Of a DNA stretch of 33,179 nucleotides, positions 1,859 to 32,835 are shown piece after piece. The stretch's first letter is position 1, and each line of letters starts with the position of its first letter. Made by a program: the position numbers and the translations under genes. The notes below the pieces were generated by a model. That model made no database searches and was not told where the DNA came from. It saw nothing but the letters and a program-made list of their open reading frames with translations. Origin of the DNA: Bacillota bacterium (GTDB taxonomy: Bacteria; Bacillota; Sulfobacillia; JAJZIM01); NCBI GenBank assembly GCA_021810565.1, contig JAJZIM010000034.1, positions 1 to 33,179 on the forward strand. The letters run 5' to 3'.

Positions 1859-1872
1859 CGGAGGTGGGGAGC

Positions 1873-2070: not shown

Positions 2071-2077
2071 GGCGGTC

Positions 2078-2464
2078 GTGCACATCCTCCAGATCGTGGG
2101 CTTCGCCCTGGTGGCGGCCGTGCTCACGGTGGTGGTCCGCAGACTCCGCCCGGAGCTGGGCCTCTTGTTGTCCCTGGCGGCCGGGGTGGTCATCCTGCTC
2201 CTGGTGTTGCCTTCCCTGCTGAGCGTGTTCCAGCGCCTGCGCTACCTGTCTGCGGCGGCCCAGGTCAACCTGCGCTACCTGGACACGGTGCTGAAGATCG
2301 TGGGGGTGGCCTATCTGACGGAGTTCGGGGCGCAGATCTGCCGGGACGCCGGGGAGGGGGCCCTGGCCGCCAAGGTGGAGCTGGCCGGCAAGGTGCTGAT
2401 CCTGCTGCTGAGTGTGCCCATCCTCAACGCCATCCTGGACCTTTTGATCAAACTTTTGCCCTGA
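2078..2464 (+). CDS. spoIIIAD: stage III sporulation protein AD
   Basis: Integral membrane protein of 128 residues with about four hydrophobic helices, starting HILQIVGFALVAAVLTVVV and ending LILLLSVPILNAILDLLIKLLP. The central segment LDTVLKIVGVAYLTEFGAQI with CRDAGEGALAAKVELAGK is characteristic of the family. GTG start at 2078, seven bases after the spoIIIAC stop. Acts with SpoIIIAC and SpoIIIAE in the inner (mother-cell) membrane part of the SpoIIIA complex. Confidence 0.94.
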   Translation: MHILQIVGFALVAAVLTVVVRRLRPELGLLLSLAAGVVILLLVLPSLLSVFQRLRYLSAAAQVNLRYLDTVLKIVGVAYLTEFGAQICRDAGEGALAAKVELAGKVLILLLSVPILNAILDLLIKLLP

Positions 2465-2478
2465 AGGGAGGTGGGAGC

Positions 2479-3606
2479 GTGCGCCGGAGCTGGCTGGTCC
2501 TCCTGCTGGCCCTGGTCCTTTGGCCCTCGCCGTCGGCCCGGGCCGCCGCCGCGCCGCAGACGGCGGGGGTGCAGTCCTTCCTCGACTCCATCAATCGGGG
2601 CACCCAGGGCTACCTGCCGCCGGTGACCCTGGGGGGCGTGGGGCAACTTTTGCGAGGCGGACCCTCGCCTTGGAGCGAGCGCCGGGTGGTCGGGGGATTG
2701 TGGCGGTACCTTTTAGGAGAGCTTCGGCCGAACCTGCGGCTGGTGGGCCAACTGGTGGTGCTGGCGGCGCTTTGCGCCCTGTTGCAGAAGCTCCAGGGCG
2801 CCTTTGCCGGGGAGACCGTGGGGAAGCTGGCCTATGCCGTGTGCTACCTGGCCCTGTTGGCCTTGGCGGTGAAAAGCTTCTCCCTGGCCGTGGGCACCGC
2901 CCGGGGCGCGGTGGACGGACTGACCGGCTTCATGGCCGCCCTGTTTCCCACCATGGTGACCCTGCTGGCGGCCAGCGGGGCGCTGATAACTGCGGGACTT
3001 CTGCATCCGGTGCTGGTGGCGGTGATCAGCACCGTGGGTTTCCTGGCCGCGAACCTGGTGCTGCCGCTGTTGGTCATGGCCGCCCTTTTGGAGGTGGCAG
3101 GCAGCCTCGCCACCGGCTTCAGCCTCTCCGGGGTGGCGGCGCTCTTGCGCCAGGGCGGGCTTTTGGTCCTGGGGCTCGGCATGTCGGCCTTTCTGGGCGT
3201 GCTGGCCGTGGAAGGGGCGGTGGGTCCGGTCTCGGACGGGGTGGCCCTGCGCAGCGGCAAGTTTCTGTCGGCCACCTTCATCCCGGTGGTGGGCAAGCTG
3301 TTCTCCGACGCCACGGAGGCGGTGTTCGGCTCGTCGCTCCTGTTGAAGAACGTGGTGGGGGTGGCCGGGGTGCTGGGGGTAGCCGTGCTGGTGGTCCTGC
3401 CCCTGCTCAAGCTGGTGGCCGTGGTCCTGGCCTACCGGCTGGCCCAGGCGGCGGTGCAGCCCATGGGGGCGGGGCCCGTGGCCAAGGCCCTGGGCACCTT
3501 GGCCCACGCCCTGACCCTGGTGACCACCACGGTGCTGGCGGTGGCGGTGATGTTCTTCCTGACCTTGACGGTGCTTCTGACGGCGGCCAATCCCGCCGTG
3601 GGTTGA
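2479..3606 (+). CDS. spoIIIAE: stage III sporulation protein AE
   Basis: Polytopic membrane protein of 375 residues. An N-terminal signal peptide (RRSWLVLLLALVLW, Ala-rich end near residue 25) is followed by a soluble stretch and then 7-8 hydrophobic helices. The segment FLSATFIPVVGKLFSDATEAVFGSS region is characteristic of SpoIIIAE. GTG start at 2479 with GGGAGGTGGGAGC upstream. It is the largest SpoIIIA membrane subunit and lies 12 bp before spoIIIAF. The G-rich coding strand and codon choice match its neighbours. Confidence 0.94.
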   Translation: MRRSWLVLLLALVLWPSPSARAAAAPQTAGVQSFLDSINRGTQGYLPPVTLGGVGQLLRGGPSPWSERRVVGGLWRYLLGELRPNLRLVGQLVVLAALCALLQKLQGAFAGETVGKLAYAVCYLALLALAVKSFSLAVGTARGAVDGLTGFMAALFPTMVTLLAASGALITAGLLHPVLVAVISTVGFLAANLVLPLLVMAALLEVAGSLATGFSLSGVAALLRQGGLLVLGLGMSAFLGVLAVEGAVGPVSDGVALRSGKFLSATFIPVVGKLFSDATEAVFGSSLLLKNVVGVAGVLGVAVLVVLPLLKLVAVVLAYRLAQAAVQPMGAGPVAKALGTLAHALTLVTTTVLAVAVMFFLTLTVLLTAANPAVG

Positions 3607-8544: not shown

Positions 8545-9168
8545 TTAAGGATTTGCCATTACCTCTTCCACCGCCCGCAAGATGCGGGGCGCCGTCAACT
8601 TGGTGTCCCGTCCGAACACGACGATCCAGTTATTTTTTTGCGGCCATGCGCGATACCGCTGGATCAAACGATCTATACATCCTTGCGAGTAGCCATGGTC
8701 CTTCCGGCGGATCCCCTTAGTGGTTGGTTTGGAGACGATCACTACCAAGTCGGGGTCGCGGTATCTGGCCAGCAGTCGTCTCGCCTCCTTGCGGAAATAC
8801 CGCTGTTCACGGCAGGATGCCTTGGCCTCCTGGAGAATATGGGGCGCAACGATTTCGGCATCCTCCCACGGGATGCCGTCCAGGAGCGCCACCGGAATGC
8901 AGCTTCCCGCCACCTCGGCATAAACCGCCAGGCGATCTTGAAGAACGCGAAGCTGCGCCTGCGCGGTCCGATCCTCCGGATTCGCACGGCAGGAGCTTTC
9001 CACGAGCGGAACGGCTCGGGGCACCACCGTCCAATCGGGACGTTCCGCCTGCAGAAGACGCAACAGGGTGGCTTTTCCCTCTTCGTCCGGTCCGCACAGG
9101 GACACCAGCCATGTCAGCGGCACGCAGCATCCTCGCCTTAACCAGTGGAACTGCCTTTCTTCCGCCAC
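8545..9168 (-). CDS. P-loop nucleotide/nucleoside kinase-like protein, degenerate Walker A
   Basis: Product of 207 residues, similar in length to thymidylate and deoxynucleoside kinases. Near the N-terminus LVSLCGPDEEGKATLLRLL matches the P-loop of these kinases (GPDGSGKST-like) but the usual Ser/Thr after Lys is Ala, followed by Thr. Later features fit the fold: DPDLVVIVSKP resembles the core strand PDL.i.L, and GIRRKDHGYSQG followed by RYRAWPQ resembles the lid and the R..Y motif region. I chose the GTG at 9168 because GGAGG lies 8 nt upstream; the longer GTG at 9177 touches that site. Alone on the minus strand, convergent with DUF5615. Substrate unknown, and it may be non-catalytic. Confidence 0.55.
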   Translation of the reverse strand: MAEERQFHWLRRGCCVPLTWLVSLCGPDEEGKATLLRLLQAERPDWTVVPRAVPLVESSCRANPEDRTAQAQLRVLQDRLAVYAEVAGSCIPVALLDGIPWEDAEIVAPHILQEAKASCREQRYFRKEARRLLARYRDPDLVVIVSKPTTKGIRRKDHGYSQGCIDRLIQRYRAWPQKNNWIVVFGRDTKLTAPRILRAVEEVMANP

Positions 9169-9292
9169 GATTATCACCTCCTGTTGCTCCCGCCGGCGCC
9201 TCCGCGAGCTTTGCTCAAGATCCGCGGGGCCGCCCTAACGGGGACTTCCCGGGTTGTCGGCATCATTTGTCATTACAAGGGGCGTAATCCGC

Positions 9293-9508
9293 TCACACCG
9301 GCCACCGATTCCCCTCCGAGCCGGCCTGGATATTGGTGAATCGGCGCCAGGACGCCTTCAGCGTCATGGGCAGATACCCCCATCGCGGAGCGCCGGATAC
9401 CCGCACCTCACCCGGAAACATCTTCAGCAGGCGTTTCAGCGCCGCCGGGTCGTCCCCCAGCGCCTTGCCCTCCCTGATCACCTCCAGGACCTCCCGGGCG
9501 GCAGCCAT
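9293..9508 (-). CDS. small unknown protein, paralogue of the gene at 9560-9856
   Basis: Product of 71 residues of no family I recognise. It aligns with the second half of its upstream neighbour: LEVIREGKALGDDPAALKRL versus LEGAGKGRVVEILVDDPVTLERL, then KMFPGEVRVSGAPRWGYL versus DLFPDRLRQHKAPKVGYV. So this is a partial duplicate lacking the first 40 or so residues. Its ATG (9508-9506) lies in the loop of a perfect 20-bp inverted repeat, and there is no clear ribosome binding site, so expression is doubtful; translation re-initiation after the upstream gene is possible. May be a gene truncated by the rearrangement that made the inverted repeat. Confidence 0.4.
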   Translation of the reverse strand: MAAAREVLEVIREGKALGDDPAALKRLLKMFPGEVRVSGAPRWGYLPMTLKASWRRFTNIQAGSEGNRWPV

Positions 9509-9540
9509 GCCGCTTGCCGCGCCGCCCGGGAGGTCCTGGA
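9483..9540. repeat. perfect 20-bp inverted repeat with 18-bp spacer
   Basis: TCCAGGACCTCCCGGGCGGC (9483-9502) is the exact reverse complement of 9521-9540. The spacer is 9503-9520 and contains the start codon of the minus-strand gene at 9293-9508. No T-run follows on either strand, so it is not a standard terminator. It looks like a local inverted duplication: on the minus strand, the start of the downstream gene (codons for AAAREVLE) is copied backwards just upstream of it. Confidence 0.9.
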
Positions 9541-9559
9541 AGCTCTCCTCCCGGAACGC

Positions 9560-9856
9560 CTACTCCTCCGCCAGGAGCAGATGCACGTAGCCCACCTTGG
9601 GCGCCTTGTGCTGCCGCAGCCGGTCGGGAAACAGGTCCGCCAGCCGCTCCAGGGTCACGGGATCGTCCACCAGGATCTCCACCACCCGGCCCTTCCCGGC
9701 GCCCTCCAGAGCCTTGCGGATCGCCTTCAGGTTGCGCGCCACTCCGGGCTCCCCCCGCAGGTCCACCCGCAAGATATGCCCTCCCTTGCCGGAAACCTTG
9801 CAGGAATCCGCCCAATCCTTGGCGAAGCCTCCAACCAACACCGCCGCATCCGTCAT
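9560..9856 (-). CDS. small unknown protein (98 residues)
   Basis: Product of 98 residues, unrecognised. N-terminal half DAAVLVGGFAKDWADSCK and ILRVDLRGEPGVARNLKAIR looks alpha/beta; the second half (DDPVTLERLADLFP, APKVGYVHLL) is repeated in the downstream 71-residue gene. Start ATG at 9856 with GGGAGGAAG 6-7 nt upstream is convincing. Transcribed divergently from the secreted phosphodiester-glycosidase-family gene; the 120-bp shared upstream region contains the inverted repeat GGCGGG/CCCGCC at 9882-9899. The coding strand is G-rich, unlike the plus strand around it. No signal peptide or membrane segment seen. Confidence 0.6.
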   Translation of the reverse strand: MTDAAVLVGGFAKDWADSCKVSGKGGHILRVDLRGEPGVARNLKAIRKALEGAGKGRVVEILVDDPVTLERLADLFPDRLRQHKAPKVGYVHLLLAEE

Positions 9857-9881
9857 GGTCAGCTTCCTCCCTTCAAATTTC

Positions 9882-9899
9882 GGCGGGTCATCTCCCGCC
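9882..9899. repeat. short inverted repeat between divergent genes
   Basis: GGCGGG (9882-9887) and CCCGCC (9894-9899) flank a 6-nt loop within the 120-bp region between the divergent genes at 9856 and 9977. It could be an operator or a leader hairpin of the minus-strand gene. No promoter hexamers nearby are good enough to decide. Confidence 0.3.
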
Positions 9900-9976
9900 T
9901 CTGTCTTGTAGACGAACCTGGGCCGAATCCGTTACATCTTCCCCCAAGAATCTGCGGGAGGTTCTCGGACAACCCG

Positions 9977-11404
9977 ATGGCAACGATAACCCGACCCCTG
10001 ATTCCGGTCATCGTAGTGTCGCTGCTCGCCGCGGGCGCCCCCACGGCGACGGCCTTCGACGGCGTCTCCCCCTCCACGGCCACCGTGACCGCCGGCGGCG
10101 TCACCCGCAGCGTGCAGCTGCTGGAACTGGACTGGAGCGACCATCGGTACCAGCTCCTGCCCGTGCTGGCCCACGGACGGATCAAGGCCACCGAGAGCCT
10201 AGCCCATATGGCCCAGGACGCGGCAGCCGTCGCCGCCGTCAACGGAGGCTTCTTCAACGCCTACACCAACATGGAGCCGCAGGGCACCCTGGAGGTCTAC
10301 GGGAGTTACCTGGTCAACTCCGGCGGCACCCTCATGGGCGTCACCGCCAACAACCGGATGCTGATGGAACCGGACTCGAGCCTGTCCATAAAGGGCGGCA
10401 TAGACGGCGCTTGGTCCTGGCCCGACGACTGGTACGCCTGGGGTTTCAACCGCAACTACCACCAACCCAGCCAGATCGTCGTGTTCACCCCGGCCTGGGG
10501 CGCCGCCACCGGCGACGTGGGCAACGGAACCTGCGTCGTCGTTGACCGGGGAGTCGTCCAGACCATCGTCCAAGGCAGCGCGGCCATTCCCGCCCACGGC
10601 TATGTGATCTACCTGGGCTCCGCTCCCGACGCCCAGCAGTATCTCCAATACCTCACCCCCGGCTCGACCGTGGCCTACAAGGTGCAGGTCCTGTCCTACG
10701 GCAATCCCGTGGACTGGTCCGGCGTGGTGTCAGCCCTCGGCGCCGGCCCGCTCCTGGTATCCGGCGGTCGGGTCGTGGCCAACCCGCAGGCGGAGGGCTT
10801 CACCGATCCCAACATCACCAGCCGGTCCATGACCCGCAGCTTCGTGGGCGTCACGCCGGACAATCGGCTGGTCCTCGGGGTGATCCCCAACGTGACCATC
10901 CAGCAGGCGGCGGACATTCTTGCCAGCCTGGGACTGCAAGAGGCGATGAACCTGGATGACGCCGCCTCGTCGGGTCTGTGGTACCAGGGCCAGTACCTAT
11001 GGCAACCCAGCCGGAACCTCAGCAACGCCCTGGTCGTGGTGTACCACCGCCACCCCATGCCGGCCCTGACGGTGAACGGCAAACCACTCACCGGATACCC
11101 CTTGCCCTTCATAACCCACGGAACCACCATGGTTCCGCTTCGCCTCGTCTCCCTGGCTCTCGGCGCCTCGGCGTCTTGGGACCCCACCACCCGCGCCGTG
11201 ACGATCCAGGACGGATCGTCCACCATCTCCATTGCCATCGGCAGCACTGCCGCGCTGGTGAGCGGCCAAGCGGAAACCTTGCCCGTCGCCCCTGTGCTGA
11301 AGCACGACTACACCTACGTGCCGCTCCGCTTCATCGCCCAAGCTTTCGGAACCCAGGTCGGTTGGAATCCCTCCACCTACACCGTGTCCATCACCACGCC
11401 GTAG
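9977..11404 (+). CDS. secreted phosphodiester glycosidase (NAGPA-like) with stalk domains
   Basis: Product of 475 residues. A signal peptide (IPVIVVSLLAAGAPTATA, cleavage near 26) is followed by a NAGPA/DUF2233 domain at about 60-355: AAVNGGFF (89-96), GAGPLLV (255-261) and NLDDAASS (about 325-332, where many relatives have LDGGGS). Two copper-amine-oxidase-N-type stalk repeats follow: VNGKPL...MVPLRLVSLALGA...W and YVPLRFIAQAFGTQVGW. Such proteins are exported and are thought to act on cell-wall or exopolysaccharide phosphodiester linkages. Start ATG at 9977 gives a perfect signal peptide, but the nearest GGGAGG is about 15 nt upstream. The coding strand is C-rich, opposite to the core genes. 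Confidence 0.85.
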   Translation: MATITRPLIPVIVVSLLAAGAPTATAFDGVSPSTATVTAGGVTRSVQLLELDWSDHRYQLLPVLAHGRIKATESLAHMAQDAAAVAAVNGGFFNAYTNMEPQGTLEVYGSYLVNSGGTLMGVTANNRMLMEPDSSLSIKGGIDGAWSWPDDWYAWGFNRNYHQPSQIVVFTPAWGAATGDVGNGTCVVVDRGVVQTIVQGSAAIPAHGYVIYLGSAPDAQQYLQYLTPGSTVAYKVQVLSYGNPVDWSGVVSALGAGPLLVSGGRVVANPQAEGFTDPNITSRSMTRSFVGVTPDNRLVLGVIPNVTIQQAADILASLGLQEAMNLDDAASSGLWYQGQYLWQPSRNLSNALVVVYHRHPMPALTVNGKPLTGYPLPFITHGTTMVPLRLVSLALGASASWDPTTRAVTIQDGSSTISIAIGSTAALVSGQAETLPVAPVLKHDYTYVPLRFIAQAFGTQVGWNPSTYTVSITTP

Positions 11405-20803: not shown

Positions 20804-22396
20804 GTCAGAATCGATGCCCCGAATCGAAGGGGATTGAGACGCAGGGCCTATGCCCGAAAAGCGACCGTACCCCAGTCAGAATCGATGCCCCGAATCGAAG
20901 GGGATTGAGACATTCAGGGCGGTGCTCGGCGTCCACGTCCGAACACAGGTCAGAATCGATGCCCCGAATCGAAGGGGATTGAGACCCGGGGAGAGACAGT
21001 CGCACCGCCCACTGTGAGCACAGGTCAGAATCGATGCCCCGAATCGAAGGGGATTGAGACGGAGTCCTCCGCCTCGTACAAATGCTCCACCAGGCCGTCA
21101 GAATCGATGCCCCGAATCGAAGGGGATTGAGACAACAGCGCCAGTGCCATCCCCGGGGTCTTGGGCAACGTCAGAATCGATGCCCCGAATCGAAGGGGAT
21201 TGAGACGGCGGCCTCGGCTGCCCCGGCCTCGAATGGGTCGAGGGTCAGAATCGATGCCCCGAATCGAAGGGGATTGAGACTAGAACCACCACCCGCGGAG
21301 GGGCCGATCATCGGAAAAGTCAGAATCGATGCCCCGAATCGAAGGGGATTGAGACCCCACCGCCCGAATGATCCCGTCCACCAGGTCCCGTGTCAGAATC
21401 GATGCCCCGAATCGAAGGGGATTGAGACCTGACACCATCGTCTTCTCCTCCTTCCTTCCTTTCGGTCAGAATCGATGCCCCGAATCGAAGGGGATTGAGA
21501 CGGGCTTCCCCTTTAGGGTGTACCCTCCATCCTCCCCCTCAGTCAGAATCGATGCCCCGAATCGAAGGGGATTGAGACCCGGAATGGGCAGACCCGCCCC
21601 CACTTGCAGGCTGTGCGTCAGAATCGATGCCCCGAATCGAAGGGGATTGAGACCCATCTCCTCCGGCGTGGACGGCTGCGCCAGCCCGTTGTCAGAATCG
21701 ATGCCCCGAATCGAAGGGGATTGAGACTCAGCAGCCTGGGATGGCGGCCCCCGATCCGTTCCAACGGGTCAGAATCGATGCCCCGAATCGAAGGGGATTG
21801 AGACACGAAGGCCTTCTCCAGAGCCGCGATCTGCAGTTCCTGTCAGAATCGATGCCCCGAATCGAAGGGGATTGAGACGTTCGGGGGCGAGGATGGCAAC
21901 GATCCTTGAGTTCAGTGTCAGAATCGATGCCCCGAATCGAAGGGGATTGAGACTCCACCTCTTGACCTCGTATACCCCCACCATTTTAAGTCAGAATCGA
22001 TGCCCCGAATCGAAGGGGATTGAGACAGCGCGCCAGCCGCAGGCCGCGGAGGCACAGCGCCGCGTCAGAATCGATGCCCCGAATCGAAGGGGATTGAGAC
22101 CTCATCGAAGCGCCGCCGGGGATCACCCACCGCCCGGGTCAGAATCGATGCCCCGAATCGAAGGGGATTGAGACCCATTTCGGCCACCTCCTTTCCTTCA
22201 AATTCCGCCCCCGTCAGAATCGATGCCCCGAATCGAAGGGGATTGAGACTATGCCCAGCGGTGGCCATCGTAACGGCAGCCGCAAGTCAGAATCGATGCC
22301 CCGAATCGAAGGGGATTGAGACGGAACCTGCGACAGGCCCGTGACGCCCTCCAGGGCGTGTCAGAATCGATGCCCCGAATCGAAGGGGATTGAGAC
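20804..22396 (+). CRISPR. CRISPR array, 22 repeats of 37 nt, 21 spacers
   Basis: The repeat is 37 nt, begins GTCAGAATCGATG and ends GGGGATTGAGAC, with CCCC/GGGG able to form a short hairpin. All 22 copies read identical, including the last. First copy 20804-20840, last 22360-22396. Spacers are 34-40 nt, mostly 36-38, all different. The 3' end ATTGAGAC corresponds to the 8-nt crRNA handle (ATTGAAAC-like), so transcription runs left to right, toward the cmr genes. Spacers at 21429-21464, 21954-21989 and 22175-22212 are antisense to what look like gene starts. Cas6 is not in the window. Several open frames across the array are artefacts of the repeat. Confidence 0.98.
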
Positions 22397-22693: not shown

Positions 22694-23863
22694 ATGCGGA
22701 TGTATAAAATGGTGGCTGAATTCCAGTTGGTTACTCCGGCGTTCTTAGCAGGGGCAGAGCAGAAAAGCCCTGAATTGCGGGTTACCAGCATAAAGGGAGC
22801 GCTGCGCTTCTGGTGGCGGGCTAGGCGCTTCGCAGGCTGCAGAGGCGGCATAGATGGCATGCGCCAAGATGAGAGTCTTATTTTCGGCGATTCTGGCGCG
22901 ACGGGATGTTCAGCAGTTGTGATGAAAGTTAATGGGACCCTAACTATAGCGAATCCTGGAACCATACTACCGATAATGGATGACTATCCCGGGGCGCGTT
23001 ATCTTGGATACGGCGTTATGGAAAGTGTGGGCAGCCAGAAGAGAAGGACAAGAGCCGGAGAACTCATCAGAGGGTGCCTGCAACCTGGGCCATTCCAGGT
23101 CACCTTTATTTCGAAAAAGGTTTTTGACCCTTCGTTCATCGATGCCGTAAAACTGTTCGGGCTATTAGGAGGAATTGGGAGCAGAAGCCGAAAAGGTTAC
23201 GGCAGTGTCACGCTATTGAGGCTAGAAGGGGATGGAGTAGCAAAGTGGGAATGTCCGCCAGACATCGAGGCTTATCGGGAGCGCTTGACTAAGAACATCG
23301 GTACACAGCCGTCAGGTGACTCAGAGCCGGAGTATTCGGCGTTCGGAAATAAGGCTAAAGTGTACGCAATTGCTGAGGGGAACGCGACTTTGGATCTCCT
23401 CAATTCGATCGGCGAGGAGATGCAGATGTATCGTAGTTGGGGTAGGAATGGCCGGGTTAATGGTCAGGCTTCTGAGAGGAACTTCCAATATGATCACGAC
23501 GAGATGAAGAATGCCTGCGAAGGAACAGTGCCGCAGGGGCATCCTAAACGGGTGGTGTTTGGTCTGCCCCATAATTATTTCTTCTCGAGCATAAACTGTA
23601 AGGTCTCCGTTAGCGCGGTCAAGGGACGTGACGAGATCGAGCGCAGGGCCAGCCCCTTGTTCATTCATATCCATCAATTCAAGGAAGGCTCTTATACAGC
23701 CGTGGCCACCATCCTTTGGTCGGAATTCTTGCCTCTTGGCACAAAGATTGAGGTATCGGGAGGAGGAGCTACCCATACATTTGAACCTGAGCTGGATTTG
23801 TCTGTCTTGGATAATTTCGTGAAACGGTTCGACCAGGGGGGGCAGAGAATATGGCCCAAGTAG
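22694..23863 (+). CDS. cmr1: type III-B CRISPR RAMP protein Cmr1
   Basis: Cmr1 (389 residues) caps the 3' end of the crRNA in the Cmr complex. The RAMP signature is clear: AEFQLVTPAFLAGAEQKSPE followed by LRVTSIKGALRFWWRARR near the N-terminus, and the glycine-rich loop LLGGIGSRSRKGYGSV around 160-175. The C-terminal half is less conserved. ATG at 22694 is only 3 nt after AAGGAG; the next ATG at 22700 has the more standard 9 nt and may be the true start. It overlaps cmr2 by 13 bp. GC content is much lower than in the core genes. Confidence 0.93.
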   Translation: MRMYKMVAEFQLVTPAFLAGAEQKSPELRVTSIKGALRFWWRARRFAGCRGGIDGMRQDESLIFGDSGATGCSAVVMKVNGTLTIANPGTILPIMDDYPGARYLGYGVMESVGSQKRRTRAGELIRGCLQPGPFQVTFISKKVFDPSFIDAVKLFGLLGGIGSRSRKGYGSVTLLRLEGDGVAKWECPPDIEAYRERLTKNIGTQPSGDSEPEYSAFGNKAKVYAIAEGNATLDLLNSIGEEMQMYRSWGRNGRVNGQASERNFQYDHDEMKNACEGTVPQGHPKRVVFGLPHNYFFSSINCKVSVSAVKGRDEIERRASPLFIHIHQFKEGSYTAVATILWSEFLPLGTKIEVSGGGATHTFEPELDLSVLDNFVKRFDQGGQRIWPK

Positions 23864-25719
23864 GAGGGAGCTACCTGCACTTTACCTTGGGGCCGGTGCA
23901 GAGCTTTGTGGCCCAAGCTCGTCGGACGCGGGACCTGTGGGCCGGTTCATTCCTGCTGTCCTACCTTACCGGCCAAGCGATGGCCGCTGTCTTGCGTAGT
24001 GGCGGAAGGATTGTGTTTCCCGAGGTCGCTCGGGATGGAGAGCCAATAGATCCGCTGCTGAAAGCGATCATGAACGGCGGGCAGGGGCCTGACTTTGGAT
24101 CTTTGCCTAATCGTTTCAAGGCTGAGATAACAAACGGATTTTCCCCCGAGCAATGCCGTGAGGCCGTTGCAACGGCGTGGGATCGGGTAGCTCAAGTGGT
24201 TTGGGATGAATTTGTGGCTCCTTCGGTGTCATACGGTAAAGGCACCGAGGCCATTTGGCAACGTCAGATCAAGAACTTTTGGGAAGTCGCTTGGTGCATT
24301 GGCGAGGAGAATAACCTGCTGGATCGGCGCAAGAACTGGCGCAGCGGTCATGCCACCGTAGAGCCTGGCGATAAGTGTACAATGATGGGCACATTGGAGG
24401 AGGTATCCGGATACACCAGGTCTATCGGCCGTGAAGCAGAGCAGCAGCGATGCTTTTGGGAAAACATTCGCAGATGCCGGGGCGTTGGAAAGTTAAATCT
24501 TCGTGATAATGAAAGACTATGCGCTATTGCCTTGATTAAGCGCCTCTTTCCCCTGACGGGGGATAGCATCGGATGGAGGATGCGACCTCATTTTCCTTCC
24601 ACCGCCTATGTGGCGGCTGTACCATGGCTTGTTGCTGCGCTGACGAACAAGCCGAAGTTAGCGCTACAATATGGAGAGGCCTCCAAGGGGATCGCTGATC
24701 AGAATTCCCGCATGGCGATTGAGCAGTTCCGTAGCATCAAAGAAGCTGTGGGGCATGATCAAGACAAGCGGGGCTTCGCGTCCTTGGGTGGCGAATACTT
24801 CCATCAGGCAGCCTTGAAGGACGGAGATCGTTGGGAAGAAAGTACGTCTGTTGCTCGTGAACAGCTACGGGCACTGCTGTCGGAGGACAAACTTGGGGAA
24901 CCAACCTCCTTCTTCGCCATGTTGCTTATGGATGGAGATCGGTTGGGCAAGCTGCTCCAAGGGCACGATAGCACTCAAATCAGCCAGGGTTTGGCTCGTT
25001 TCACTGGGCAGGCCCAAGATATTTTTGAGAGGCACGATGGGGTGGTGATCTACGCCGGAGGCGATGATGTGTTGGGACTATTTCCTGTGAGTGAAGCCAT
25101 TGGGGCAGCATTGGACCTCCGACGGGTTTACGAGGAATCCTTCACTGATACGACTGCTGCAGGGCAGGCCACCATATCCGCCGCCATCGTTTATGCACAT
25201 TACAACCATCCCCTGCAAGCGATGGTGGCCAAGAGCCACGACCTCCTGGACCGGGTCGCAAAGGAAGGAACGGGTCGGAGCAGTTTGGCGGTCACCGTAT
25301 GGAAAGGATCTGGCCCTACGTTGGAGTGGTCCATGCCTTGGGAGTGCCTGACGGAAGGTGCGCCAGCCGACGCCAACCTGGTGGACGAACTGGTTACCGC
25401 TTTTCGCAATGACGATTCGGAACCTGGCGGCCAGTATTCCAGCCGTTTCTTCTACCACATTCAGGAACGTTTCCCCCTGTTTGCGGATCGAGAGTACGAC
25501 GAGGACGTTCCCGTTCGTCTGCTGGTAGCAGAGTACCTTAAGAATAAAGAGGGTCGCCAAGTGACCATTGAAGAGGCTCAGGACAGAGTAAGCCGCCTGA
25601 TCAGAATGTGCCGCAAAGTGAAGCGAGATGCTGTCGGCAAGGTGGAGTTCTGTGGCAAAATCACGATAGATGGAGCATTACTGGTGAGATTTCTAGCCAT
25701 GGGAGGTAAAGCTGGATGA
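23851..25719 (+). CDS. cmr2: Cas10 (Cmr2), HD-less, cyclase palm intact
   Basis: Large subunit, 622 residues. It starts directly with YLHFTLGPVQSFVAQARRTR and DLWAGSFLLSYL, so the N-terminal HD DNase domain is absent. The Palm motifs are present: MDGDRLG with Asp361/Asp363, and YAGGDDVLGL with GGDD at 403-406, so cyclic oligoadenylate synthesis is expected. The zinc site usual in Cmr2 is partly lost: where a CxxCG is expected the protein has DKCTMMGTLEE, and later ERLCAIALIKR instead of LCxxC. Start ATG at 23851 inside cmr1; ATGA overlap with cmr3. Without HD, immunity should rely on RNA cleavage by Cmr4 and on signalling to the CARF effectors downstream. Confidence 0.95.
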   Translation: MAQVGGSYLHFTLGPVQSFVAQARRTRDLWAGSFLLSYLTGQAMAAVLRSGGRIVFPEVARDGEPIDPLLKAIMNGGQGPDFGSLPNRFKAEITNGFSPEQCREAVATAWDRVAQVVWDEFVAPSVSYGKGTEAIWQRQIKNFWEVAWCIGEENNLLDRRKNWRSGHATVEPGDKCTMMGTLEEVSGYTRSIGREAEQQRCFWENIRRCRGVGKLNLRDNERLCAIALIKRLFPLTGDSIGWRMRPHFPSTAYVAAVPWLVAALTNKPKLALQYGEASKGIADQNSRMAIEQFRSIKEAVGHDQDKRGFASLGGEYFHQAALKDGDRWEESTSVAREQLRALLSEDKLGEPTSFFAMLLMDGDRLGKLLQGHDSTQISQGLARFTGQAQDIFERHDGVVIYAGGDDVLGLFPVSEAIGAALDLRRVYEESFTDTTAAGQATISAAIVYAHYNHPLQAMVAKSHDLLDRVAKEGTGRSSLAVTVWKGSGPTLEWSMPWECLTEGAPADANLVDELVTAFRNDDSEPGGQYSSRFFYHIQERFPLFADREYDEDVPVRLLVAEYLKNKEGRQVTIEEAQDRVSRLIRMCRKVKRDAVGKVEFCGKITIDGALLVRFLAMGGKAG

Positions 25720-26837
25720 GCGAGAAACTATGGCAGTTTTCTGCCCTGGACTCGTGGTTTTTTCGGGACGGGAGTCCAATGAATGCTGGAGGAGGACAGC
25801 AAACTTCGAGGAGCCTTTTTCCTCCTTTTATGACCACCTTGCAGGGAGCTATTAGGACTGTTCTTGCTCAAGGGCAGGGATGGGATCCGGAAACGCCCGC
25901 CAAATGGCCGAGAGAGTTAGGTAGCCCTGACGATTTGGGGGATCTATCTCTAGACGGGCCCTATCTTCAGGCGGGAGACGATTGGTTATTTCCGGCACCC
26001 CTACATCTGGCGGAAACAGAGGTCAAGGACGCTGGACAGAGAGGCCGAAACGCTGATCGCGTCATAGCCTTCATACGGCCTGGGGAGGACAAAATCGAAT
26101 GTGATCTTGGATGGGTTAGATTGCCGGAAATGGATCTTCCGGGAGCCAAGCCACTGGAACGCTGGTGGATCTGTCGATCCGGTCTGGAGGATATCCTCGC
26201 AGGGCGGCAACCCCAGGCGGAACACATGAAAGCCGAAGGTGACCTGTGGTCCTACGAACCCCGCGTCGGCTTGGAACGGGACTTGGCGACTAGGACCGCC
26301 AAAGAGGGGCAACTGTACTCGACGGCCCAGATACGGCCTCATAACGGGGAATTGAAACTGGGGGTCATGGTGGGTGGTATTGAGGAGGCATGGCACCCGC
26401 AGGAACCGTTGCTCATCCCCTTGGGAGGCGAAGGAAGGCTCGCTAGAGTAGAAGTAGTGGACCCTCCCGAACTATTTCCGACGCCGCCGAACGCCTTTGA
26501 TGGCCAAGGAGATATGGTCCGATTCATGGTTATTTTAGCTACGCCCGGATGGTACGAGAATTTGTCGGACGTGGTTCGGAAAGGCCCTCCTGGCCTCCCA
26601 GGAAACTGTGTTTCGGCCTGCATCGGCAAATTGCAGCGGGTCGGCGGTTGGGATTTGCAGCGACGAAAACCGAGGCCGTTGGAGCCGATTCTGCCGGCGG
26701 GAAGCTGCTGGTTCATGGAAGCGTCCGCGAAGGAGGCCAAGACGATCCTGGAGTGGCATGGTAAGGTGTCTGGTCACAAAGCCCAATACGGCTTCGGTAA
26801 ATTGCTAATTGGGAACTGGGGAGGAAGAGAAAAGTGA
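25716..26837 (+). CDS. cmr3: type III-B CRISPR RAMP protein Cmr3
   Basis: Cmr3 (373 residues) binds the 5' handle of the crRNA with Cmr2. Seen: LDSWFFRDGSPMNAGG near residue 10-25, where the family has D..FFRDg.P, SLFPPFMTTLQGAIRT, and the C-terminal glycine-rich motif HKAQYGFGKLLIG. ATG at 25716 in a 4-bp ATGA overlap with cmr2, and GTGA-type overlap with cmr4, so the operon is translationally coupled. Length is normal for the family. Confidence 0.93.
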   Translation: MSEKLWQFSALDSWFFRDGSPMNAGGGQQTSRSLFPPFMTTLQGAIRTVLAQGQGWDPETPAKWPRELGSPDDLGDLSLDGPYLQAGDDWLFPAPLHLAETEVKDAGQRGRNADRVIAFIRPGEDKIECDLGWVRLPEMDLPGAKPLERWWICRSGLEDILAGRQPQAEHMKAEGDLWSYEPRVGLERDLATRTAKEGQLYSTAQIRPHNGELKLGVMVGGIEEAWHPQEPLLIPLGGEGRLARVEVVDPPELFPTPPNAFDGQGDMVRFMVILATPGWYENLSDVVRKGPPGLPGNCVSACIGKLQRVGGWDLQRRKPRPLEPILPAGSCWFMEASAKEAKTILEWHGKVSGHKAQYGFGKLLIGNWGGREK

Positions 26838-27664
26838 AGGCTATCTTGATGGGACTGCTGGCTGAGACCTTCCTGCATCCGGGCAGCGGGGACAGTGCGG
26901 GGGCTGTGGACCTGCCGGTAGCCCGGGAGAAGCACACCGGCTACCCGGTGATTTTCGGTTCCAGTCTGAAGGGGGCGTTGCGGGAGGTAGTGGAGGCGGC
27001 GGAGGGCAAATCTGAGGCCGACGCCATTTTCGGAAAGCCGGAGGAGGCTGGCTCTGTAAGCGTTACCGACGCCAGGTTGATCCTTTTGCCGGTACGTTCT
27101 TTGGCCAGCCATTTCCGATGGGTTACCTGCCCCTACTTGTTGGAGCGTTATCAGCGGGACTGCGAGTTGGCCGGCAGTAGTGTGAATATCGATATACCGA
27201 AAGTGGAGGATGGAACCGCTGCGGGCACGAAAGAGCAGGAGGGAATGATCTTTCTGGAGGAGTTATCCTTCTTAGTGAGTAAGAAGGAGGATTTAGGAGA
27301 AATAGCCAAGGGGCTGGGGCATTTAATTAGGCACAAGGAAGCGAAGGACCGATTGCGTGAAAGCCTTCTGGTAATCTCAGATGGCGAATTCGCCCATTTT
27401 GCGGCCAATGGCTTGGCTGTAAATGCCCGCAATGTCTTAGATGATGCCACAAAAACCAGCAAGAACCTTTGGTACGAGGAAACCATTCCGCCCGATGCCG
27501 TATTCTACAGTTTGCTTTTTTCGCCAGGAGGACGGGATGCGGTAGCGGAAAAGTTGCAACATCTCTTGCGGGAAAGGCCGTACCTGCGGGTGGGCGGGAA
27601 TGAAACCGTGGGGCAGGGTTGGTGCACCGTTGCCTTGAATCAAGGGGGGAAGTACGGTGAATAG
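26834..27664 (+). CDS. cmr4: type III-B CRISPR RNase backbone subunit Cmr4
   Basis: Cmr4 (276 residues) forms the filament and cuts target RNA every 6 nt. The N-terminus has ETFLHPGSGDSAGAVDLPVA with Asp26 at the position of the catalytic Asp known in Pyrococcus Cmr4. Then YPVIFGSSLKGALRE (RAMP loop), and near the end LRVGGNETVGQGWC. The GTG start at 26834 overlaps cmr3. The intact catalytic Asp means target RNA cleavage is expected to work. Confidence 0.95.
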   Translation: MKAILMGLLAETFLHPGSGDSAGAVDLPVAREKHTGYPVIFGSSLKGALREVVEAAEGKSEADAIFGKPEEAGSVSVTDARLILLPVRSLASHFRWVTCPYLLERYQRDCELAGSSVNIDIPKVEDGTAAGTKEQEGMIFLEELSFLVSKKEDLGEIAKGLGHLIRHKEAKDRLRESLLVISDGEFAHFAANGLAVNARNVLDDATKTSKNLWYEETIPPDAVFYSLLFSPGGRDAVAEKLQHLLRERPYLRVGGNETVGQGWCTVALNQGGKYGE

Positions 27665-28055
27665 AGCAAGGACGCTGGAGCTGGAGCGAGCTAACGACGC
27701 ATGGGAAAAAGTCAAGACTATAGCGGCGCAAAATGCGAAGGGCAAATACGGCTCTTACGTAAAGGGCCTCCCGGCAGCTATTTTGGCTAACGGCCTGGGC
27801 CAGGCAGCCGCGACGCTCCTGGCTGCCGCCAAGGGACAAGGGAATAATGACCACCAGGCTTTGTACAACCATCTGCAGGCATGGCTATGCCGGGACGATC
27901 CCTCCGCTCCTTACCGAGGCAAGGCGGATCTGATGCAGGCGATCACTAAGGGGGATAGGGCAGTATATCTACGAGCCCAGGCAGAGAGTTTAGCCTGGCT
28001 GGGTTGGTTGAAAAAATTCGCCGCAGCCTATTTGCCTGAGGGAAAGGAAGACTGA
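27657..28055 (+). CDS. cmr5: type III-B CRISPR small subunit Cmr5
   Basis: Small alpha-helical subunit (132 residues) of the minor filament that lines the target RNA. Diagnostic segment KGKYGSYVKGLPAAILANGL followed by GQAAATLLAA, then HQALYNHLQAWLC, and YLRAQAESLAWLGWLKKFAAAYL at the end. GTG start at 27657 overlaps cmr4 by 8 bp. Confidence 0.95.
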   Translation: MNRARTLELERANDAWEKVKTIAAQNAKGKYGSYVKGLPAAILANGLGQAAATLLAAAKGQGNNDHQALYNHLQAWLCRDDPSAPYRGKADLMQAITKGDRAVYLRAQAESLAWLGWLKKFAAAYLPEGKED

Positions 28056-28059
28056 TGTG

Positions 28060-29133
28060 ATGGTGCCTCTATATAGCGGTAGTAATGCCCCACCGCGGCC
28101 GCCCGCCGAGGCTAACCTAGGCCTTTGGTATAATAAATTTGGAGACACTTGGAACGGAGCGAGAAAAAACGAGCAATGGAAGCGTGCCTTGATTAGCTCG
28201 GTGACTGGGGTGAAACAGAACGAATTACTCCAACAGGCATGTGCCAGACTATGTCACTTATCCGAGGCATTGCACGGGGAAATACGCTGTTTACAAACGA
28301 ACGGTCGCTTTGTTACCGGCCTGGGCCGTGAACACCCCATAGAAAACGGCTTTGCTTGGCATCACACGCTTGGAGTACCTTACTTAGCTGGATCCTCAGT
28401 TAAAGGCGTAGTCAGAGCTTGGGCACAGGAATGGAGGGAGGTTAATGAGGAGGATTTGGCTCGCATTTTCGGCGGCGCATCTAATGGTGATGACAGAGCT
28501 AGAGGAAGTGTCATTTTCTTCGATGCCCTGCCTTATAAACCCCCAAAATTAGAAGAGGAAGTAATGACGCCGCATTACTCCGAATATTATCGCAAAAATG
28601 GTCCACCTGCCGATTGGTATTCACCTACGCCCATACCCTTTCTCACAGTGGCGGCTAGGCAGCCCTTTATTTTCGGAATAGCACCGGTGGGGCTGGGGAG
28701 GACATCCAAAACGGATGTGGACAAAGCTATGGCTTGGCTAGTTGAAGCACTAGAATGGATCGGTGCCGGAGCCAAAACGGCGGTTGGATATGGCAGGTTT
28801 GTGCTGGACGACAAAATAACCGAGGAATTGAGGCTAAGCGCCAGAACACACGTTGAGACAGTAAAGGCCAGCGACCTGGACAACTCAGCGAGTCCTATCC
28901 GGAGAGAGATGGACAATGACGGTTATGCATCGGACAAGTTTATGGAGTTTCTGACCAGAAAATGGTTAGGCAGGATGGATGCTGCGGATACTTCCGAGGT
29001 TGATCGCCGGGAGATAGCTAAGCTCTTAGCAGAGTGGTACCAAAGGCAACGACCGACACAATGGACCAGCCCGTCGGGAAAAAATGAGGATAAGGTTAGG
29101 CGTATTAAGGATGCCTTGGCGGTGCGTGGGTGA
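28060..29133 (+). CDS. cmr6: type III-B CRISPR RAMP protein Cmr6
   Basis: Cmr6 (357 residues) caps the complex with Cmr1. Typical features: RFVTGLGREHPIENGFAWHH, LGVPYLAGSSVKGVVRAWA (RAMP loop), ARGSVIFFDALP, and WIGAGAKTAVGYGRF. ATG at 28060 has AAGGAAG upstream; GTG at 28057 is an alternative. The C-terminal part from about residue 265 (SDLDNSASPIRREMDNDGYA to RIKDALAVRG) is helical and extends beyond the core. Last gene of the low-GC cmr block. The sequence after its stop has no clear terminator. Confidence 0.94.
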   Translation: MVPLYSGSNAPPRPPAEANLGLWYNKFGDTWNGARKNEQWKRALISSVTGVKQNELLQQACARLCHLSEALHGEIRCLQTNGRFVTGLGREHPIENGFAWHHTLGVPYLAGSSVKGVVRAWAQEWREVNEEDLARIFGGASNGDDRARGSVIFFDALPYKPPKLEEEVMTPHYSEYYRKNGPPADWYSPTPIPFLTVAARQPFIFGIAPVGLGRTSKTDVDKAMAWLVEALEWIGAGAKTAVGYGRFVLDDKITEELRLSARTHVETVKASDLDNSASPIRREMDNDGYASDKFMEFLTRKWLGRMDAADTSEVDRREIAKLLAEWYQRQRPTQWTSPSGKNEDKVRRIKDALAVRG

Positions 29134-29496
29134 GGCCCAAAGTGAAGCTCAATTCTGGTCGCATCCCCTTTACAGTTTAGTAATGTGGGCGAAGTGCCGA
29201 GGTATACCGGCATTTCCCCGCGCCCCTAGAATTCGGAGGCTTGCCGCGCATAGTTATGCAGAATAATGGCATGGCTACTTATTCCGGAAGGAGAGAAGGG
29301 AGGGCACAGAATACCCAAAATAGTTCATATGATTATGTGATCCATTTATCCTGGGTGCCCAGATATTTTGTGGGGCGTCACCCTGACGGTTCTCGGAGGT
29401 TACTTCGTTAGTGTGCCAGATAGAGCTGCCAAAGGCAACAAATAGCAGCGACACCTACCGGGGAAGGTGCCGTCCCCGGGGGTTTCGTACCCGGCT
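29134..29496. other. gene-free stretch after cmr6
   Basis: I see no protein. AT-rich at first (29250-29350), GC-rich later. A hairpin CCGGGG (29458-29463) / CCCCGG (29474-29479) with a 10-nt loop is followed by GGGGTTTCG; it could be a weak terminator or a remnant of an insertion-sequence end next to the transposase piece that follows. Confidence 0.5.
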
Positions 29497-29775
29497 TCAG
29501 GCTACGCCCTGCTCGCAGTCCGCGCCCGAGTACAGCAGCGGGGATAGGTAGCCCGGCAGGACCCGAAGCGACATCTCCGCCTGCTTTTGGAATACCAGCA
29601 GTTCCGTCTTCCACAGGGCCGGCGCCTGCCGGTGGGTGCTGGAGGCCATGTAGGTGCGGGCTGTGCTCCGGCCCTCGGCCCACATCCCGGCCAGGTTCAG
29701 CCAGGTGTGGGCTACGGCCAAGACCAGCATCAGGCGGCCGAGGTGGCCGTGGGTGCAGGCGCCGGACTTTACTAC
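29497..29775 (-). pseudogene. C-terminal remnant of a DDE transposase (IS4-like)
   Basis: On the minus strand a frame reads HGHLGRLMLVLAVAHTWLNL, then AGMWAEGRSTARTYMASSTH, and ends WKTELLVFQKQAEMSLRVLPG and a stop. A hydrophobic RLMLVLAVAHTWLNLAG block followed by a short basic tail is typical of the end of IS4-family transposases (RLLLVLALAyxWLxLLG). The catalytic domain is missing; the frame upstream becomes antisense to the next gene. The family guess is by eye. Confidence 0.4.
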
Positions 29776-29788
29776 AGGGAGGCATCCT

Positions 29789-31354
29789 ATGCGGGTTCTA
29801 ATTGCCCCTCTGGGCATGACACCCCTGGTGATCACGGAGGCGGTGGTCGCCCTTCGCGAATCCCCGGAAGGGCCGCGGGCGGTGCCGCAGCAGGTGGTGC
29901 TCCTGTATCCCAACGACCCCGAACAGCCGGAGCGCTTCATCGACTACGGTGCGCAGCTTTTGCAAGAGGTTCTGCGGGAGTGCTGCGGGATCCAGGTCCG
30001 CCCAGTTCCCCTACCCTTCGCCGACCCGTCGGACGGGGAGTCCTGCATCACCTACCTGCGCTTACTGCGGGATGAGCTGGAGGCCCACCGGCAGGACGAG
30101 GTCTTCCTTCTGGTGAGCGGTGGGCGTAAGAATACCAGCGCGCTCACGGCGGTTCCGGCCCAATTCTACCCCAACATCCACGGACTGTACCACGTGCTGG
30201 ACGCCTTGGAGGGAACCCCGGAGCAGCGTCGATACAGCGTGGAAGACCTACAGGGGATGGATCCCGCTGCACGGCGCCGGGCGATGTTCCCGCCCGTCAA
30301 CGAGGTGCGATTGGTGCCTTTGCCTTTTGCGCGCCTCTCCGATGCGGAGGAACTGCGCCGGTATCTGACCGGCCCTCGCCGGGAGGAGGAGTTCCGCCTG
30401 TCGGCGGAGGCGGAGGAGTTCTTCCGGGGCGTCTTCGGTACGGGCACTGTCCGCCGTCTCGCCGTGTGGCTCTCGGCGGCGGCGGAAGAGGACTTCACGG
30501 CCTTGGGCCCCGACCGCAAACGCTGGGTGCGGGCGCAAGTGCTGCGCCTGGCTGACCCGGACTTCCTGGAGAAGGAGCACCAGCGCCGGTACGTGGCGGC
30601 GGAGAGCGACTGCTGGGTGCATCCGCAGGGTCGACACCCGCTGCGCATCCTTTTCTCCCCGTCACCGCGGGAGGGACGACTGGTGGTGCAGCGCATCCTC
30701 TCCCATGCGGAGTACGATCGGTTTCTGGCCAGGGGCGGCCTGCCGCGGGCGGCGGATTTCCCCCCCTATCTCCCGCTTGAGCACTTGCCTGTGGCGACGG
30801 GCGGCACCCTGGTGGCGCCGGTAGGCCTTTCACCGATGGTGGTGAGCCAGATCTACCGGCTGCTGGAGCGGGAGGGACGGCGACCGGATCGGCTGCTCCT
30901 GCTCCCCACCTCCGCCGCGGCGGTGCAGGATGGGGTGCGGATGCTGGAGGCCGCTTTTCGGGCGCGGGTTCCCAGGTTGCGACCGGAGGTGCGGCCTTTG
31001 CCGGTGCAGGACGTGGCTTGCGCCGAAGATTGCACCATCTTCGCGGCGGCGCTGCAGCACGCGCTGCGGGAAGCGGATACGGACAAGCCCCGCTACCTTT
31101 CTATCGCCGGGGGACGCAAGGCCATGGCCGCCGTGGCGTACTACGCCGCCCAGATGGAGGGCATCCCGGAGGTGTTGCACACCACCATCGTGGATGAAAA
31201 ACTGGAGCGGCAGGTGATTGGAGAGACCTCGCCAGCGGCCTTGGCGGACTTGGCCCCGGGGGAACAGCAGCGGCGTCTTTTCCTGGACGCCTACGCCGAG
31301 CGCCTGGCCGACTTCCGGCTGATCATGGTTCCGGTGGTTCCCCTGCATCCGTAG
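29789..31354 (+). CDS. tandem-CARF protein with central RelE-like domain (CARF-RelE-CARF)
   Basis: Product of 521 residues. Residues 1-190: CARF domain of the NE0113 type, VLIAPLGMTPLVITEAVVAL and LLVSGGRKNTSALTA (GGRK 111-114). Residues 335-500: second CARF, TLVAPVGLSPMVVSQIYRLL and YLSIAGGRKAMAAVAYYAAQ (GGRK 441-444). Between them (about 222-316) lies a RelE/ParE-like toxin pattern: ALGPDRKRWVRAQVLRLADP, EKEHQRRY, then RHPLRILFSPSPREGRLVVQ and RILSHAEYDRFL. Candidate catalytic or RNA-binding residues are Lys262, Arg282, Arg286, His306 and Tyr309. By family knowledge, cyclic oligoadenylate made by Cas10 should bind the CARF pair and switch on ribosome-dependent mRNA cleavage (compare the CARF-RelE effector Cami1). 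ATG at 29789 with GGGAGG upstream. High GC, unlike cmr genes. Confidence 0.75.
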   Translation: MRVLIAPLGMTPLVITEAVVALRESPEGPRAVPQQVVLLYPNDPEQPERFIDYGAQLLQEVLRECCGIQVRPVPLPFADPSDGESCITYLRLLRDELEAHRQDEVFLLVSGGRKNTSALTAVPAQFYPNIHGLYHVLDALEGTPEQRRYSVEDLQGMDPAARRRAMFPPVNEVRLVPLPFARLSDAEELRRYLTGPRREEEFRLSAEAEEFFRGVFGTGTVRRLAVWLSAAAEEDFTALGPDRKRWVRAQVLRLADPDFLEKEHQRRYVAAESDCWVHPQGRHPLRILFSPSPREGRLVVQRILSHAEYDRFLARGGLPRAADFPPYLPLEHLPVATGGTLVAPVGLSPMVVSQIYRLLEREGRRPDRLLLLPTSAAAVQDGVRMLEAAFRARVPRLRPEVRPLPVQDVACAEDCTIFAAALQHALREADTDKPRYLSIAGGRKAMAAVAYYAAQMEGIPEVLHTTIVDEKLERQVIGETSPAALADLAPGEQQRRLFLDAYAERLADFRLIMVPVVPLHP

Positions 31355-31377: not shown

Positions 31378-32835
31378 TTGGAGGGACTGAAGGAGCTCAG
31401 CGAGCGGTGGAAAAGAATGCCTGCGGATGAGGCACAGGAATTCTACGACCGGGAGGTATTTCCCAGGGTGCTGGACGAGGTGGTGCCGCGGGAGCGGGCC
31501 AAAATGGGCCTCTCTGGGGATGAGGCGGGTTACGAGGTCATGGTGCTGCCGCTTGGCACCTCGCCGGAGCCCCTCATCATCTCGCTGGCCGTGTGGCGCC
31601 CCCGCCGGGTGCTGCTTTTGCCCACGGCGCAGAGCCGCCCCCTGGTGGAGCGGGTGCGCCGTGAAGCGGGGCTGTCGGAGGAGCAGGTGGATGTGCGGGA
31701 GGTGTTGCCCAATGATCCGCTGCCCTTGTATACAGAGATCCGGAATGCCTACCAGCGGTGGGGCCGTCCCGATCGGGGGGCGGTGGACATCACGGGGGGG
31801 ACCAAGGTGATGGCGGCCGGGTCGGGCATGGCGGCCAGTGCCCTGAAGTTCGACGTGGTCTATGTGTGGGGTAAGGAAAGGTATTTGGAGCAGTACAGGC
31901 ATCCCGAGCCGGGCACAGAAAAGGTGATGCGGATCGAAAACCCGCTATCAGTCTTGGGGGATTTGGACTTCCAGGCGGCTTGTGCCATGGCCGAACGACA
32001 TGACTACGGCGGCGCCCGGTGCATTATGGACGAGCTGGCGCGCAAGGTGCCAGGGGAGGGGGCCCTGGTGTACGGGATCTGGGCCCGCTTGGGGCGAGCC
32101 TACGAGGCCTGGGACCTCCTCCAGGTGGGGCGGGCCGCCCAGGAATTGGAGGCCCTAGAGGCGGGACTGGACCAACACTGGCGCCTTCCCTATTTGGCCC
32201 GGCTGACGTCTCGGCGAGAGCAATTGCGCGCCCAGCGGGCGGCGGTAGTGCTTTTGGCCCAGCGCCTGCCCGTGCAGGCCGCGGCGCTGCCGGTGGCCGA
32301 TCTAGCCGACGCGCAGCTCATGTGTGCCGTCATCGGAACCCTGTATCAGGCGGCCCTGCGCCGCGAGGCCGCTGGAAGGTTGGACATGGCGGCACTGCTT
32401 TGGTACCGGCTGCTGGAGGTGCTGGAGCAAAGCCGTCTGGCGGCTTTGGGACTGGACACCGCCAAGCCGGACTATGCTGCCTTGGCGAAGCAACTGGGAA
32501 GGACCCTGGAGGACCTCCTTGCCGCATACAACGTCCAGCGCCAGGGCATGGACCTCTCGCCGATGGAGGCGCTGCCCGACCCCGTGGACTTGGTGGCCGG
32601 ATACCTGCTTCTAGCGGCGGTAGGGCAGCCGTTGGTGCTGCGCCTCAACAGCTTGCGGGAGCAGACGTCCCAACGCAATTTCAGCATCTATGCCCACGGG
32701 TATTCCTTCGTCTCGGAGAAGAACCTGCGCACTTTCCGCAGCCTAGCCGAGGAGGTGCTGGGCCGCTACCTGACGGCAGTGGGCATCGAAGCCGCGCGTC
32801 TGGAGGAGCTAGCCTTCGTGCCCTGGGGGGACTGA
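31378..32835 (+). CDS. CARF-HEPN ribonuclease, Csm6/Csx1-like (TIGR02710 type)
   Basis: Product of 485 residues. CARF domain at about 50-190: YEVMVLPLGTSPEPLIISLA, RVLLLPTAQSRPLVERV, and VDITGGTKVMAAGSGMAASA with GGTK at 140-143. A long helical middle (200-400) leads to the C-terminal HEPN-type motif Arg433-NFSIYA-His440 (Rx6H) in LREQTSQRNFSIYAHGYSFV. The DxTGGTK and RN....AHG pair is typical of the TIGR02710 group of CARF proteins. Expected role: non-specific RNase triggered by cyclic oligoadenylate. TTG start at 31378 with GAAGGGAGG upstream. It lies 23 bp after the CARF-RelE-CARF gene, so they are one operon. Confidence 0.8.
   Translation: MEGLKELSERWKRMPADEAQEFYDREVFPRVLDEVVPRERAKMGLSGDEAGYEVMVLPLGTSPEPLIISLAVWRPRRVLLLPTAQSRPLVERVRREAGLSEEQVDVREVLPNDPLPLYTEIRNAYQRWGRPDRGAVDITGGTKVMAAGSGMAASALKFDVVYVWGKERYLEQYRHPEPGTEKVMRIENPLSVLGDLDFQAACAMAERHDYGGARCIMDELARKVPGEGALVYGIWARLGRAYEAWDLLQVGRAAQELEALEAGLDQHWRLPYLARLTSRREQLRAQRAAVVLLAQRLPVQAAALPVADLADAQLMCAVIGTLYQAALRREAAGRLDMAALLWYRLLEVLEQSRLAALGLDTAKPDYAALAKQLGRTLEDLLAAYNVQRQGMDLSPMEALPDPVDLVAGYLLLAAVGQPLVLRLNSLREQTSQRNFSIYAHGYSFVSEKNLRTFRSLAEEVLGRYLTAVGIEAARLEELAFVPWGD

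Follow-up and report, generated by a model that had tools for sequence, protein, structure and literature searches.

The closest described counterpart of the protein analysed here is Cami1, which is activated by cA4 and cleaves mRNA in a ribosome-dependent manner as a dimer. Each Cami1 chain has one CARF domain of the CARF7/APE2256 type and a C-terminal RelE domain. Within the parts of the literature covered, CARF-RelE proteins carry a single CARF domain only, and an earlier notice of a CARF-RelE-CARF protein is possible. Cami1 itself has ring-nuclease activity (PMC12409355). Ring nucleases of the Crn1/Csx14/NE0113 (CARF5) group, which also includes regulators, are represented by Crn1, a family of small stand-alone proteins, and by Sso2081, in which motif I is G-T-S, motif II is G-R-K, and replacement of Ser11 by Ala lowers ring cleavage by about 80% (PMC10018336). 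Two CARF domains per chain, which enclose the effector domain or lie next to it, are found in Can1, described as a monomer (PMC11229360), and in the PADLOC classes CARF2--CARF_HEPN_CARF and CARF4--CARF_PDDEXK_CARF, which follow a CARF-effector-CARF pattern by name. Csm6-2 (CARF-HEPN-CARF-HEPN) has an intrachain CARF pair (PMC13187428), which is asymmetric.

The window, a 33,179 nt stretch of DNA from a Bacillota bacterium, carries a type III-B CRISPR locus with the following features:

20804–22396, no strand assigned: CRISPR array, 22 copies of the 37-nt repeat GTCAGAATCGATGCCCCGAATCGAAGGGGATTGAGAC (repeat search)
22694–23863, plus strand: cmr1 (TIGR01894, PADLOC Cmr1)
23851–25719, plus strand: cas10/cmr2, with an intact GGDD cyclase motif at aa 403–406 (TIGR02577, 1.2e-42)
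25716–26837, plus strand: cmr3 (PF09700, 4.5e-66)
26834–27664, plus strand: cmr4 (TIGR02580, 9e-62)
27657–28055, plus strand: cmr5 (PF09701, 1.8e-35)
28057–29133, plus strand: cmr6 (TIGR01898, 3e-40)
29777–29782, plus strand: GGGAGG ribosome-binding site of the effector gene (sequence), with the ATG 6 nt further on
29789–31354, plus strand: CARF5-RelE-CARF5 effector gene, 521 aa (ORF, Pfam, NCBIfam, PADLOC, paralogue)
31378–32835, plus strand: CARF-HEPN effector gene, Csx1-like (TIGR02710, 4e-40; PF09670, 1.8e-20)

The 521 aa open reading frame at 29789–31354 is present as the initial annotation had proposed, and the single-chain layout that it had read there, with a RelE-like segment between two CARF domains, was borne out within a type III-B locus that looks active. 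A longer frame opening with GTG at 29654 was considered and rejected; the ATG at 29789 is preferred because it is preceded by the GGGAGG site and matches the start of a paralogue described below. The gene lies between the complete cmr1-cas10-cmr3-4-5-6 operon and the CARF-HEPN gene, which is co-oriented, begins 23 nt downstream and has an intact HEPN motif, RNFSIYAH (RNxxxxH). Ancillary effectors of type III systems are encoded with a cyclase-competent Cas10, and the Cas10 found here carries that motif (GGDD) and is the sole match to PF22335 in the genome. A type III locus adjoining a CARF-HEPN (Csx1-type) gene is also the setting of Cami1/CARF7-RelE proteins, and one survey counts 54 cases in which Csx1 and Cami1 occur together (PMC11229360).

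The interval of roughly 650 nt that separates cmr6 from the effector gene (29140–29780) holds no recognisable gene; an open stretch on its reverse strand, which Pfam does not match, could be what is left of a decayed mobile element. Elsewhere in the window, the stage III sporulation genes spoIIIAA and spoIIIAE (408–3606) place the host in a spore-forming lineage, and the protein encoded at 9254–11404 combines a copper amine oxidase N-terminal domain with a phosphodiester glycosidase (NAGPA) domain.

Within the effector gene, the following parts were located, all on the plus strand:

29789–30364, plus strand: N-terminal CARF5/NE0113 domain, aa 1–192 (Pfam NE0113, Csx14 TIGR03642, PADLOC CARF5)
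29813–29824, plus strand: motif I of the N-terminal CARF, GMTP, aa 9–12 (Sso2081 alignment; GMAP in the paralogue)
30119–30130, plus strand: motif II of the N-terminal CARF, GGRK, aa 111–114 (sequence)
30365–30454, plus strand: linker, part of which looks like a remnant of the winged-helix tail seen in CARF7-RelE proteins (FRLSAEAEEFF here, ITLSPAGTVYY there; PADLOC match starts at aa 204)
30455–30748, plus strand: RelE-like domain, about aa 223–320, ~95 aa (PADLOC, hhalign, Foldseek)
30644–30646, plus strand: Arg286, proposed catalytic (at the position of the Arg conserved in Cami1-type RelE; kept in the paralogue and in L009/L010)
30704–30715, plus strand: His306 and Tyr309 (HAEY), proposed catalytic (corresponding to the H....Y of Cami1-type RelE)
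30800–31351, plus strand: C-terminal CARF5/NE0113 domain, Crn1-like, aa 338–521 (Pfam NE0113 at 348–520, NF040581, Sso2081)
30824–30835, plus strand: motif I of the C-terminal CARF, GLSP, aa 346–349 (Sso2081 alignment; GTSP in the paralogue)
31109–31120, plus strand: motif II of the C-terminal CARF, GGRK, aa 441–444 (sequence)

Both sensors belong to the family to which they had been assigned, GGRK-type NE0113 CARFs with the motif at 111–114 and 441–444. Pfam Cas_NE0113 (PF09623) matched the protein in two stretches (6e-30; 105 bits against a curated cutoff of 23), and homology between the two CARFs extends from end to end (169 columns, 1e-11 by hhalign). The Csx14 model TIGR03642 fits best on aa 9–136, with a combined score barely above its curated cutoff, while the Crn1 model NF040581 covers aa 341–471 at 47.3 bits, under its equivalog cutoff of 125. 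Among solved structures, those nearest in sequence are Sso2081-type ring nucleases, which match the C-terminal CARF (3e-7). Neither CARF falls within CARF7/APE2256, the APE2256 match lying under the Pfam cutoff. The effector is thus outside Cami1 proper, since both its CARF family and its domain layout, with a second CARF after the RelE, differ. It also differs from the Crn1/Csx14/NE0113 relatives found, none of which has two NE0113 domains or a RelE.

The two CARFs differ in their ring-nuclease motifs. Motif II is present in all four CARF domains of the effector and its paralogue; the serine of Crn1 motif I is retained only in the C-terminal CARFs (GLS in the window copy, GTS in the paralogue) and is gone from the N-terminal ones (GMT and GMA, respectively). 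Other proteins of the phylum labelled Csx14 (TIGR03642; L040–L043, L045, L047, L049, L051 and L052) by eye combine a CARF5 domain with a LuxR/GerE-type HTH; these look like regulators, not ring nucleases, because of the HTH and because GVEP or GLEP replaces GTS. Another CARF5 protein (L007, 5294–6304, minus strand) matches PDLC01907 end to end, and its C-terminal domain resembles, by eye, the C-terminus of a CARF7 protein in L011.

The middle segment is very probably RelE-like, as first suggested for a stretch of ~95 residues similar to RelE/ParE. The PADLOC model CARF7--CARF_RelE matched aa 204–314 on model positions 223–328 of 344 (8.3e-5), and the paralogue matched the same model independently (1.5e-4). 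A two-row alignment of the segment was compared by hhalign with the RelE parts of L009 and L010, which are full-length same-phylum CARF7-RelE proteins (1e-112 or better to PADLOC CARF7--CARF_RelE), giving a score of 30.9 over 87 columns; none of 300 column shuffles reached this value, the best scoring 18.6. In the L009/L010 profile, the CARF part matches the solved chains 8phb and 8phj, which we take to be AvCami1 (in the record they are named just as a protein of the APE2256 family), and the last part has a very weak match to E. coli RelE (E 0.2). Together with the winged-helix-like linker, the order CARF, linker, RelE is shared with Cami1/CARF7-RelE proteins, and the RelE segments align. Residues D274-C275, R286, H306 and Y309 correspond to D289-C290, R302, H320 and Y324 of L009, and on this alignment Arg286, His306 and Tyr309 are proposed to be catalytic.

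A single-sequence AlphaFold model of aa 201–324 has a pLDDT of 46, and its last elements are two helices, three strands and a helix, in this order. Foldseek placed RelE/HigB structures first and at seven of the first eight ranks; none of the matches is individually significant, the best having E 0.27, and they serve as no more than support because the model is of low confidence. The segment has no Pfam match, and a PDB sequence search with aa ~194–324 gave no credible match. These last results, with the weak fold matches and a poor full-length model, would fit a spurious RelE match and an unrelated linker domain, a reading that is nevertheless very improbable, given two independent PADLOC matches of about 1e-4 in the right register, the shuffle result and the fold ranking.

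A RelE/ParE fold could also be present without an mRNase role, as a ParE-type gyrase inhibitor or a structural element, making the protein a ring nuclease or regulator. The lysines that have roles in E. coli RelE are without a conserved counterpart in the segment by sequence, and the RelE part is the least conserved of the three between the two copies (44% identity); both points favour such a reading and count against a working mRNase. ParE toxins have the same fold without the catalytic residues (PMC11980606), and a Synechocystis CARF7-RelE protein showed ring-nuclease activity but no RNase activity when total RNA was supplied without ribosomes (PMC9676260). However, the segment is nearest in sequence to the RelE parts of CARF7-RelE proteins, to whose family Cami1 belongs, and Arg286, His306 and Tyr309 are common to these and to both paralogues. 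We regard a middle domain without an mRNase role as improbable, and the RelE-like domain as probably an RNase.

The paralogue is a full-length copy with 55% identity on another contig of the same genome (C76). As in the window, it is followed by a CARF-HEPN gene (58% identical to its counterpart), beyond which lies a gene for a CARF-PDDEXK protein. The copies are 61% identical in the N-terminal CARF and 53% in the C-terminal CARF; dN/dS between them was computed but is given no weight, because their synonymous sites are close to saturation. A tree groups the two N-terminal CARFs together and likewise the two C-terminal CARFs, showing that the arrangement is older than the split of the copies. 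This speaks strongly against a misassembly or a fusion that arose by accident in recent times; a chimera was likewise ruled out by the full-length copy on a separate contig with the same downstream gene.

The C76 copy lies in the second CRISPR region of the genome (C76, 453–12684), which has repeats of its own and, by eye, cas6, a reverse-transcriptase/primase-like protein and cas1 as neighbours; the CARF-PDDEXK protein (8572–9636, minus strand) is Card1/Can2-like. No Cas10 was found in this region, so that five CARF effectors may depend on a single Cas10.

The protein in all likelihood works as a CARF-RelE effector. The explanation that we put first, tentatively and at a little under an even chance, is an effector that belongs to the adjacent type III-B system and is gated by cyclic oligoadenylate, with an intrachain CARF pair, a RelE mRNase and a C-terminal CARF acting as a timer. 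The Cmr complex would detect foreign RNA and Cas10 would produce the cyclic oligoadenylate, most likely cA4. Both CARF5 domains of one chain would form an asymmetric pocket, whose closing around the ring would set free the RelE-like domain in the middle, or orient it, for cleavage of mRNA on ribosomes. The N-terminal CARF would only bind, and the C-terminal CARF, with its ring-nuclease motif retained, may cut the ring slowly and so act as an off-timer. The computed parts of this explanation are the domains, their order, the intact Cas10 motif, the gene context and an arrangement kept in two diverged copies.

Pairing of the CARFs within one chain, so that each signal molecule would govern one toxin, had been envisaged by the initial annotation; the analogy with Can1 and Csm6-2 makes it plausible. 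Can1 and the two PADLOC CARF-effector-CARF classes differ from this protein in having PD-(D/E)xK or HEPN effectors and other CARF families; Csm6-2, in which the asymmetric pair has been shown, differs in having HEPN effectors, two per chain, in forming tetramers and in preferring cA5. A single-sequence AlphaFold model of the full-length protein (pLDDT 42.7, pTM 0.34) gave no usable CARF-CARF interface, and its fold matches, which include the CARFs of Crn1 and Cad1 alongside unrelated Rossmann proteins, were set aside.

The asymmetry of the CARFs can be explained by an intrachain sensor in which one half-site cuts, and just as well by a Cami1-like homodimer to which a ring nuclease is fused. 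In the homodimer, the N-terminal CARF and RelE would act as in Cami1, each ring engaging two chains and two toxins; the C-terminal CARF5 domains would pair as in Crn1 and remove the signal. The loss of motif I from the N-terminal CARF and its retention in the C-terminal one, in both copies, would be accounted for, and so would the standing of Crn1/Sso2081 as the best structural relatives of the C-terminal CARF by sequence. The genome has no other CARF5 protein to supply a ring nuclease; Csx3 was not found either, which carries no weight since the control for that search gave no match anywhere. Effector-ring nuclease fusions are known, namely Csx1-Crn2 (PMC7293037) and Crn4 fusions (PMC12830947). 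The Marinitoga Csx1-Crn2 protein would then be a parallel in joining both activities in one chain, although its effector is HEPN, its ring nuclease is of the unrelated DUF1874 type and it has no CARF pair. A separate gene would, however, be a simpler source of a ring nuclease, and the two CARFs are homologous over their full length and both carry GGRK, as expected of partners in one pocket. The homodimer is a serious candidate to which we give about one chance in three. The intrachain pocket is slightly favoured over it, by analogy, because homologous domains bracketing a single effector recur in the CARF-effector-CARF classes. A stricter form of the intrachain pocket, a monomer in which two unlike CARF5 domains make an asymmetric pocket for one ring and one RelE, with a single cutting half-site and possibly an odd ring, is somewhat unlikely.

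The arrangement is rare in the genomes sampled. An NE0113 domain occurs in 26 of 398 same-phylum genomes, and two in one intact frame only in the source genome; CARF7-type matches were found in 29 of the 398, with none in the source genome at the threshold used. Full-length matches to the effector were absent from the 153 other genomes of the class and from the other sampled genomes of the phylum. Homologues were found neither in plasmid and phage records (tblastn) nor in viral contigs. Pattern scans of GTDB contigs returned nothing, which is weak evidence of absence since the patterns were narrow (8 residues). A published ring-nuclease survey applied a length limit of 250 aa (PMC12409355), and with this limit and such rarity, CARF-RelE-CARF fusions may be missed.

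From its sequence, the effector looks like a real but rare variant of the CARF-RelE effectors, made of known parts in an apparently new arrangement. The loss of the ring-cutting motif from one sensor half and its presence in the other form a natural experiment. If the asymmetric monomer is correct, cutting at a single half-site would open the ring to a linear intermediate and give an on-state of long duration; its uneven pocket could even favour an odd ring such as cA5 or cA3, as in Csm6-2. A single-chain CARF-RelE-CARF protein puts directly the question of whether RelE needs pairing to work. In this arrangement a single alarm molecule could be linked to a single toxin, and the consequence of one ring driving one toxin becomes a question that can be asked.
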